Source: Clostridia bacterium (GTDB taxonomy: Bacteria; Bacillota; Clostridia; Christensenellales; Aristaeellaceae). Taken from it: a stretch of 59,456 nucleotides of DNA. A program made the position numbers and the translations under genes. Below the pieces are notes generated by a model. That model was not told the origin of the DNA. It saw only the letters and a list, made by a program, of their open reading frames with translations, and did no database searches. The stretch is from positions 1 to 59,456 of the forward strand of contig JAFTWV010000008.1 of assembly GCA_017465155.1 (NCBI GenBank). The letters are read 5' to 3'. Below, in pieces: positions 53,601 through 55,746 of this stretch (its first letter is position 1; each line of letters starts with the position of its first letter).

Positions 53601-54652
53601 TCCACCGTGGGCTCGAAGCCAGCCAGGGGCTTGCCGGTCATGGCGTTAGGAATTTCGTCCAGCGTGTAGCCAATGGCGATCATCGCAGCGGTCTTGGCGA
53701 TAGGATAGCCGGTGGCCTTGGATGCCAGAGCAGAGGAGCGGCTCACGCGGGGATTCACCTCGATGACCGCATATTCAAAGCTGTCGGGATTCAGGGCAAA
53801 CTGGCAGTTACAGCCGCCCTCCACCTCCAGCGCGGACACCATGTCAAGAGCCGCACGGCGCAGCATCTGATATTCGGTATTGGACAGGGTCAGCGCAGGA
53901 GCCACGACGATGGAATCGCCGGTGTGCACGCCGACGGGGTCGATGTTCTCCATCGAGCAGACGGCAATGACGTTGCCCTTGGCATCACGCATGACCTCAA
54001 ACTCGATCTCCTTCCAGCCGGAGATGCACTTCTCGACCAGAATCTGCGTAATGGGAGACAGGCGCAGGCCGTTTGCCGCGATCTCGCGCAGCTCCGCCTC
54101 ATTCTGGCAGATGCCGCCGCCCTCGCCGCCCATGGTGAAGGCCGGACGGACGATAACAGGATAGCCGATTTTCTCTGCCAGCGTCAGTGCGTCCTCAAGA
54201 TTCTCCACCACGTCGGAGGGGATGCAAGGCTGACCGATGGACTCCATGGTCTGCTTGAACAGCAGACGGTCCTCAGCCTTTTCGATGGTCTCGCACTTCG
54301 CACCCAGCAGCTTCACGCCATGCTGGTCAAGGAAGCCTTCCTTGGCCAGCTGCATGGACAGGGTCAGGCCGCTCTGGCCGCCCAGCGTGGACAGCAGGGA
54401 GTCAGGCTTTTCCTTGATGATGATGCGGCGCAGGGTTTCCAGCGTCAGGGGCTCGATGTAAATCTGATCAGCAGAGGAATGATCAGTCATGATGGTCGCG
54501 GGATTGGGGTTGACCAGCACAACTTCAAGGCCAGCAGCTTTCAGCGCCTTACAGGCCTGAGAGCCGGCATAGTCGAACTCCGCAGCCTGACCGATGACGA
54601 TCGGGCCGGAACCGATGATCATAACTTTCTTGAGCGAAGGATTCAGCGGCAT
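50624..54652 (-). CDS. carB: Carbamoyl-phosphate synthase large subunit fused to a DapF domain
   Basis: 1342 residues, against about 1070 for normal CarB. Residues 1-1055 are a complete CarB: two ATP-grasp halves ([40 protein letters not shown]) and the MGS-like allosteric domain (about 935-1050). After a short linker (NNMRKEPKK) the frame runs on without a stop into a diaminopimelate epimerase, residues 1065-1342. That domain keeps GTGNDY, FNADG, MGNPH, ERVNV, WERG and the second catalytic Cys (C1284 in AACGTGACA). The first catalytic Cys, normally CGNG, is Ala1135 (VAGNAL). The start overlaps the carA end by 10 nt, with GGGAGG upstream. Confidence 0.93.
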   Translation of the reverse strand: [1342 protein letters not shown]

Positions 54653-55746
54653 TCCTTGTTACCTCCCATCAGCGCAGTAAAGCGGTCGAACAGGGTATGG
54701 GTGCCGATCTTTGCGCCGCCGAACAGGCCGCCGGTCAGCGCAGGCTGGAACTGCACGGAGAACACCGGCATGTCCAGATAATCAATGCCCTCGCAGGAGC
54801 CGTCGTTGCGGTTCACATAGCGCAGGGACGCATTCTCGGGCAGGGACTCCCTGTCCACTTCATAGCCATGGTTCTGGCTGGTGATGTAGCAGGCGCCGGT
54901 CTTCACATCCTCGATGGGCTGATTGCCGCCGCGATGACCGCTGGTCAGCTTGCAGATCTCTGCGCCCTGGCTCATGGCCAGCAGCTGATGGCCCAGACCA
55001 ATGCCCATCACAGGCAGGTGCTTGTCACCCAGCAGCTTGGTGATTTCATCGGATACATCCGCGCAATCCTCCGGGTTACCCGCACCGTTTGTGATGACCA
55101 CACCGTCAGGATTGAGCGCTGCGATGGCTTCCGCCGTCACGTTGGCAGGAACCAGCGTCACCGCGCAGCCGCGCTTCTCCAGCTGCTGCACTGTGTCAGC
55201 CTTCGCACCCAGATCCCACAGAACGACGCTGTACTTGCCGGGCTTTTCCGCAGGGATGATGTCCTCCACGCCTGTTGCAGTCTCAGCAGGGATGACCTGC
55301 GCAGCCAGCTCAGCGGCGGCAGCGGCAATATCGGCAGGCTTTTCCGTCAGGATGGCGGCATTCATCACACCCTTGTCGCGCAGACGGCGGGTCAGCGCAC
55401 GGGTGTCAACGTCCGTCAGGCAGACGATGCCATTTTCAATCAGATAATCGTTGAGGGTACCCTGACAGCGGAAGTTGCAGGGCGCGTCGCACAATTCACG
55501 GCAGACATAGCCGCTCAGACTCGGCGCGGGCGTGCCCTCGGGCATGGGAACAACGCCGTAGTTGCCGATCTGCGGGAAGGTCTGGATAACGATCTGCCCG
55601 GCATAGGCAGGATCAGTCAGAGTGTCCATGTAGCCCACGACGGAGGTGAGAAACACCGCTTCGCCAGCAGCATCCTTCTGCGCGCCGCGGAGCACGCCCT
55701 CGTACAGCTGACCATCAGCCAGCAAGAGGTAGCCTTTCTTTTCCAT
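54643..55746 (-). CDS. carA: CarA-type small subunit with lost glutaminase residues
   Basis: 367 residues with the normal CarA layout: an N-terminal domain (VVGYMDTLTDPAYAGQIV...DVDTRALTRRLR) and a class I amidotransferase domain. The domain is complete in length but its active site is gone. The nucleophile motif GICLGHQ reads GIGLGHQ (Gly250, codon 54999-54997). The VQFHPE His and Glu read VQFQPA (Gln334, Ala336). The oxyanion loop GPGDP reads GAGNP. It should not hydrolyse glutamine, but can still bind CarB. The start at 55746 has CAGGAGG upstream, 21 nt after argF. Confidence 0.93.
   Translation of the reverse strand: MEKKGYLLLADGQLYEGVLRGAQKDAAGEAVFLTSVVGYMDTLTDPAYAGQIVIQTFPQIGNYGVVPMPEGTPAPSLSGYVCRELCDAPCNFRCQGTLNDYLIENGIVCLTDVDTRALTRRLRDKGVMNAAILTEKPADIAAAAAELAAQVIPAETATGVEDIIPAEKPGKYSVVLWDLGAKADTVQQLEKRGCAVTLVPANVTAEAIAALNPDGVVITNGAGNPEDCADVSDEITKLLGDKHLPVMGIGLGHQLLAMSQGAEICKLTSGHRGGNQPIEDVKTGACYITSQNHGYEVDRESLPENASLRYVNRNDGSCEGIDYLDMPVFSVQFQPALTGGLFGGAKIGTHTLFDRFTALMGGNKECR

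Follow-up and report, generated by a model that had tools for sequence, protein, structure and literature searches.

Repeated loss of the glutaminase triad in the small subunit of carbamoyl phosphate synthase suggests ammonia-dependent enzymes in Clostridia

Carbamoyl phosphate synthase (CPS) of the Escherichia coli type is a glutamine-hydrolysing complex of the subunits CarA and CarB. A 2015 paper states that all CPS types but CPS1 use glutamine, and that human CPS1, in which Ser294 stands in place of the catalytic Cys, is obliged to take up ammonia from its surroundings (PMC4655335). Here we analyze carA on a 59,456-nucleotide stretch of DNA (the window; contig JAFTWV010000008.1 of assembly GCA_017465155.1) from a Clostridia bacterium of the family Aristaeellaceae, the product of which lacks the Cys-His-Glu triad of the glutaminase. 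We propose, with a probability of roughly 0.85, that this CarA is a structural pseudo-glutaminase, that the CarAB complex would be ammonia-dependent, and that the change belongs to a wider and repeated replacement of glutamine by ammonia in the supply of nitrogen.

Vertebrate CPS1 likewise keeps a glutaminase-like part without a working triad and has ammonia as its donor, which for the window is our prediction; it differs in being one 1500-residue chain that requires N-acetylglutamate and serves the urea cycle (PMC4655335). The window protein is a bacterial, separate subunit, encoded next to argF, and belongs to a group that has lost the His and mostly the Glu in addition to the Cys; its glutaminase part lacks the catalytic Cys as in CPS I, whereas carA and carB are separate frames and the small and large parts do not form a single chain. 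A convergent move from glutamine to ammonia within the CPS family is also described for CPS III of Alcolapia fish and bullfrog CPS I, which have an unchanged triad but no longer have residues that bind glutamine (PMC7657897); in the window CarA both are lost. The single-domain ammonia-dependent NAD synthetase has no glutaminase domain and its ammonia form is held to be ancestral, whereas the window CarA is a glutaminase subunit that persists in a dead form, probably a derived condition. With the E. coli-type CarAB, finally, the window locus shares the subunits and the profile matches, but it has neither the triad nor Ser47. A search of open-licence literature by titles and abstract openings returned no paper on triad-less bacterial CarA. 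If our reading is correct, a CPS1-like trait would have arisen again, and more than once, in the ammonia-only CPS of bacteria, with possible intermediates still visible in four genomes in which Cys and His are gone and Glu is retained (G013, G555, G645, and G553; numbers with G, C, and L are our designations of genomes, contigs, and loci).

The carA frame (Table 1) gives a full-length match to the CarA profile TIGR01368 (344.5 bits, cut-off 307.35, residues 6-360) and contains the Pfam domains CPSase_sm_chain and GATase. Since the score lies above the cut-off, NCBI models still name this protein 'glutamine-hydrolyzing'. The triad characteristic of bacterial CarA is nevertheless replaced at all three positions (Gly250, Gln334, and Ala336), in the motifs GIGLGHQ and VQFQPA that start at residues 248 and 331, and GAGNP, starting at residue 221, stands for GPGDP. 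Also replaced, by Ala47, is Ser47 of the glutamine pocket, which we take to have a part in glutamine binding. The first-pass annotation of this DNA, made from the sequence alone, had reported an open, full-length frame, the replaced triad, and the GAGNP motif; these observations held on re-examination, with the gene on the minus strand, while the Ala47 replacement and the fusion of carB to dapF had been missed.

To compare the window CarA with its relatives, we searched 18 genomes of the same genus, including the window's own, and found a carA match in 17 of them (none in G008). Fifteen of the 17 proteins have Gly for Cys and a residue other than His for His, whereas the triad is intact in two (G002 and G014). 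Of the 15 triad-less proteins, that of G013 retains the Glu, five (G005, G012, G015, G003, and G007) have Gln in its place, and nine have Ala; Ser47 is altered in all 15 and retained in both intact proteins. The alignment with related CarA that had been suggested earlier thus shows that Cys and His were lost in most of the genus. An assembly or sequencing error could be suspected, as the window genome (G000) is a fragmented draft of 136 contigs, 68.5% complete, and many of the compared genomes are also incomplete. Such an error has a negligible probability: the loss of Cys and His in 15 of 17 independent genomes, 14 of them other than the window's, and also in unrelated lineages, is neither chance nor a sequencing artifact, and the independent assemblies refute it.

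We also examined 80 CarA-related loci from named genomes, and in 78 of them both Ser47 and the triad are unchanged. The remaining two are a contig of the triad-less genome G004 (L032) and a locus from a dairy cattle colon genome (L100), the CarA of which (positions 8001-9005) keeps Cys and has Met for His and Asp for Glu. The latter is a partial case and may represent an early step toward the loss seen elsewhere. Guts or rumens, as for L100, are named as the source in the records of many relatives.

Further cases were sought by pattern scans, all confined to one order. In 308 genomes of the family, a pattern with Gly at the Cys position matched in 14 genomes, or 11 after removal of proteins other than CarA, all from the window's genus; this pattern overlooked four known triad-less members. 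Six of its matches proved on inspection of the frames not to be CarA (G126, G177:C32, G009:C129, G006:C42, G000:C33, and G004:C145), and for G177 the best tblastn E-value was 0.079. A looser pattern matched in 196 of the 308 genomes, with at least 19 rows without a Cys codon beyond the known triad-less CarA. Three of these were checked: G129 and G034:C109 are not CarA, and G159, among the matches listed less the 16 other rows, is the only CarA with Gly outside the genus. The scan of 396 genomes of the order, which held Gly fixed and so misses other replacements of Cys, gave 10 matching genomes, eight of them with CarA (three of the genus, G516, G555, G645, G348, and G553); the other two (G554 and G393) had no tblastn match at 1e-10. 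For G516 and G553, relatives from their own genera (G048 and G039, respectively) have an intact CarA.

Altogether 108 CarA proteins were compared. The Ser-Cys-His-Glu set is complete in 86, the Cys is replaced by Gly in 21, and the remaining protein, that of L100, reads Ser-Cys-Met-Asp. The 21 proteins with Gly have lost His in every case, Glu in 17, and Ser47 in 19. When the CarA state is mapped on a tree of 88 CarB rows, of which 20 are triad-less, it changes at least five times, and all five changes are forced by starred branches; the tree was built by a quick method (LG+G4) and by itself cannot tell loss from gain. We infer that the direction was loss, because the intact state is widely spread. 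The 15 triad-less members of the genus form one clade (support 99), in which the Glu-retaining G013 branches first (support of the rest, 88). Twenty of the 108 proteins, including those of G159 and L100, are off the tree, no CarB of at least 600 amino acids being available for them; G159 is a probable sixth case of loss. Loss of the triad is thus clade-wide and convergent, so that the change seen by the first-pass annotation is real but is not the single oddity for which it had been taken.

The selective constraints on CarA were assessed in triad-less and intact pairs. The ratio of nonsynonymous to synonymous divergence (dN/dS) is 0.09-0.25 in triad-less pairs (18 pairs from three close groups) and 0.13-0.26 in intact pairs (six pairs), while the ratio of CarA dN to CarB dN is 2.3-9.0 and 1.9-2.7, respectively. 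Divergence of the N-terminal half is about equal in the two classes. The ratio of divergence in the glutaminase half to that in the N-terminal half averages 1.36 (0.83-2.53) in 105 triad-less pairs and 0.76 (0.64-0.93) in six intact pairs, with the limits of the halves set by us (residues 1-140 and 173-360) and the pairs not independent. A relaxed glutaminase half with a constrained N-terminal half, which we take to be the half contacting CarB, fits a subunit retained for this contact and freed from catalysis. An alternative is that carA is in decay and that its frame stays open solely because translation of carB is coupled to it through the 10-nucleotide overlap of the two genes, a view to which the C-terminal residues NKECR, identical in all triad-less members of the genus, and the faster evolution of the glutaminase half lend some weight. 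We find this improbable, as dN/dS is far under the neutral value and similar to that of intact CarA, conservation of the N-terminal half equals that in intact pairs, and all 21 triad-less proteins have open frames of 350-369 amino acids (four of the 86 intact ones hold one in-frame stop). The earlier statement that the gene is not decaying at random is borne out by this purifying selection; together with the joint loss of the triad and Ser47, the constrained N-terminal half, and a CarB that shows no degradation matching the loss in CarA, it supports the earlier proposal of a structural subunit in a CPS that would depend on ammonia.

The former active site could also have acquired a new catalytic or regulatory role. 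Gly occupies the Cys position in all triad-less cases found, and the nearby residue 268 (codon 54945-54943 in the window), which is Lys in 81 of 86 intact proteins, is Pro in 14 of the 21 triad-less ones, including two lineages outside the genus (G159 and G348); the window CarA has Thr. We consider a new role very improbable: the patterns behind most lineages demanded Gly, and the His position is occupied in different lineages by Gln, Met, Leu, Tyr, Ala, Asn, Ser, or Glu, a variation that does not suggest a new conserved site.

Under the reading of CarA as a structural pseudo-glutaminase, the protein would retain its fold and the half in contact with CarB, would neither bind nor hydrolyse glutamine, and would hold CarB in an active form. 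Free ammonia would then reach CarB from solution and not via CarA, and CarB would form carbamoyl phosphate from bicarbonate, ATP, and free ammonia, to be passed to ArgF and pyrimidine synthesis. The predicted properties are thus absence of glutamine-dependent activity, retention of ammonia-dependent activity, and ammonia as the in vivo donor. Gut and rumen fluids contain millimolar ammonia, and the cause of the shift may be ecological, perhaps life in ammonia-rich habitats. According to the 2015 paper, E. coli CPS variants whose glutamine tunnel has been blocked or perforated can still use external ammonia (PMC4655335).

Another glutaminase might feed CarB, for example a second, intact CarA swapped in under nitrogen scarcity. 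In the genome G553, a triad-less CarA lies beside carB-dapF on contig C30, and a second CarA with an intact triad lies on C5. The island around this second copy also encodes parts of glutamate synthase, a full GMP synthase, a glutamine synthetase whose frame contains two stops, an ANTAR protein, PurF of the normal type, and a CTP synthase of the canonical type; the 32 kb read there gave no match to carB. A second full-length CarA match with an intact triad, accompanied by its own CarB, is present in G004 on contig C103, but this genome is 7% contaminated and the contig may not belong to it. The other 14 of the 15 triad-less genomes of the genus, including one that is 96% complete, showed no second CarA; among these 14 is the 68.5% complete window genome, for which the search for an intact copy had been proposed earlier. 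Moreover, G012 and G516 (both 96% complete) have only three and two matches, respectively, to class-I glutamine amidotransferases (GATases). Feeding of CarB by another glutaminase is therefore unlikely, although less so than gene decay. Clusters of glutamine synthetase, an ANTAR protein, and glutamate synthase occur on C103 of G004 and on C32 of G159. A broader and tentative scenario, to which we give slightly less than even odds, is that Clostridia lineages independently made CPS, PurF, GMP synthase, and CTP synthase ammonia-only, that some of these lineages keep intact, glutamine-using copies on a separate island for nitrogen scarcity, together with glutamine synthetase, glutamate synthase, and an ANTAR regulator, and that competition of dead and live CarA for a single CarB may act as a nitrogen switch.

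Under the ammonia-dependent reading, CarA would be one part of a repeated change of donor involving also GMP synthase, CTP synthase, and PurF. In 10 genomes searched for class-I GATases, three matches were found in each of G000, G006, G012, G005, and G007, and two in G009 and G516. GMP synthase is encoded in 11 of the 15 triad-less genomes of the genus by a frame of 331-421 amino acids, too short for a GATase domain, and none of the five short proteins read (G000, G006, G007, G011, and G012) contains one. G004 has an extra long copy on C103, the gene of G015 is cut by a contig end, and G003, G005, and G009 have only a paralog of 487-560 amino acids (read in G005). Outside the genus, the frames of G516, G555, and G645 are 330-332 amino acids long (read in G516), and the GATase part is truncated and degenerate in G348 and in one of the two copies of G553. 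The intact G014, G002, and G025 have a long GMP synthase, G002 also a short one, and G159 has one of each. A GMP-synthase-like paralog of about 490 amino acids with a degenerate GATase part (L252, G005:C57) has similar weak matches in most genomes of the genus.

For CTP synthase (TIGR00337), only weak fragments or nothing were found in 13 of the 15 triad-less genomes of the genus; the other two are G007, with Gly for Cys, and G004, with its copy on C103. There was no match in G516, G555, and G645 and only a weak fragment in G012, all four genomes being 96% complete. The enzyme of G348 lacks the Cys motif, while the copies of G553 and G159 are canonical. The type with Gly for Cys was seen at three loci (L220, G025:C67; L221, G014:C11; L184, G007:C10), and the intact G014 and G025 each have two CTP synthases, one canonical and one of this type.

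PurF positions were compared with solved PurF chains, the roles of the glutamine-pocket positions being our assumption. The pocket is altered and the Cys kept in the nine triad-less genomes of the genus that were read and in G008 (11 sequences). PurF lacks the Cys in G555 and G645, is altered in G348, and is present in one normal and one altered copy in G553; none was found in the purine cluster of G516, and PurF is normal in G014, G002, G025, and G048. The window genome has three PurF matches (C77, C9, and C24), two of them alike at the start, which reflects duplication or contamination. These parallel changes suggest that free ammonia replaced glutamine at several steps, and modify the earlier account, in which the loss in CarA stands but its restriction to CarA does not, since GuaA, PyrG, and PurF are often affected by losses as well. 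Standard profiles also label the short GMP synthases and Cys-less CTP synthases 'glutamine-hydrolyzing', and such labels would mislead metabolic models of these bacteria.

Several observations weigh against the proposed shift. The triad-less G011 has six class-I GATase matches, as many as the intact G014, and is thus an exception to the wider pattern; G553 also has six. G159 and G553 retain a long GMP synthase and a canonical CTP synthase, G019, with an intact CarA in a 79% complete genome, shows only a short GMP synthase, and PurF of the genus retains its Cys. In a scan of CarB for changes tracking the CarA state, two replacements stood out, Met for Leu174 in each of the 15 genus members and Ser for Arg772 in eight of 13; no change was seen that would clearly create a new entrance for ammonia. 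Glutamine synthetase was found in 24 of 26 genomes, and PurL retains the Cys motif GICNGFQ at 24 of 30 loci, the other six being unreadable; glutamine is thus still made and used. HisH is intact in both genomes read (G006 and G516), and GlmS was found in three triad-less genomes (G005, G011, and G516), each time with its Cys; no GlmS-type match was listed for G000, G006, G012, G007, G555, G645, G553, or the intact G025. A general loss of glutamine use was rejected on the evidence of glutamine synthetase, PurL, HisH, and the GlmS proteins found.

Table 1. Features of the carA locus in the window and their coordinates
Feature	Position	Strand	Basis
carA, small CPS subunit without glutaminase residues, 367 aa	54643..55746	minus	open full-length frame; NCBIfam and Pfam
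Codon GGT, Gly250 (E. coli catalytic Cys269 position)	54997..54999	minus	alignment to solved E. coli CarA chains
Codon CAG, Gln334 (E. coli catalytic His353 position)	54745..54747	minus	alignment to solved E. coli CarA chains
Codon GCG, Ala336 (E. coli catalytic Glu355 position)	54739..54741	minus	alignment to solved E. coli CarA chains
Codon GCC, Ala47, replacing Ser of TDPSY (E. coli Ser47)	55606..55608	minus	alignment to E. coli CarA
GAGNP instead of GPGDP, residues 221-225	55072..55086	minus	motif reading
argF, ornithine carbamoyltransferase	55768..56676	minus	TIGR00658, 421 bits (cut-off 280.85)
carB fused in frame to dapF, 1342 aa	50624..54652	minus	TIGR01369 and TIGR00652 matches

Both neighbours of carA in the window lie on the same strand. 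The gene argF, which encodes a consumer of carbamoyl phosphate, ends 21 bp upstream of carA; its start was set at the Met where the profile match begins, while the listed frame extends to 56841. This gap and the overlap with carB agree with the close spacing noted earlier. In the fused downstream gene, TIGR01369 (CarB) matches residues 5-1041 at 1396 bits and TIGR00652 (DapF) residues 1066-1340 at 272 bits. The carB-dapF fusion is common among relatives, including Ruminococcus bicirculans (L069), whether their CarA is intact or not, and a tie between the fusion and the loss in CarA was rejected, as intact relatives are also fused. In the DapF part (50624-51457), the first Cys motif reads VAGNA, compared with MCGNG in some relatives, and others also lack this Cys. 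Given the role that we assume for this residue, the DapF half may be inactive as well.

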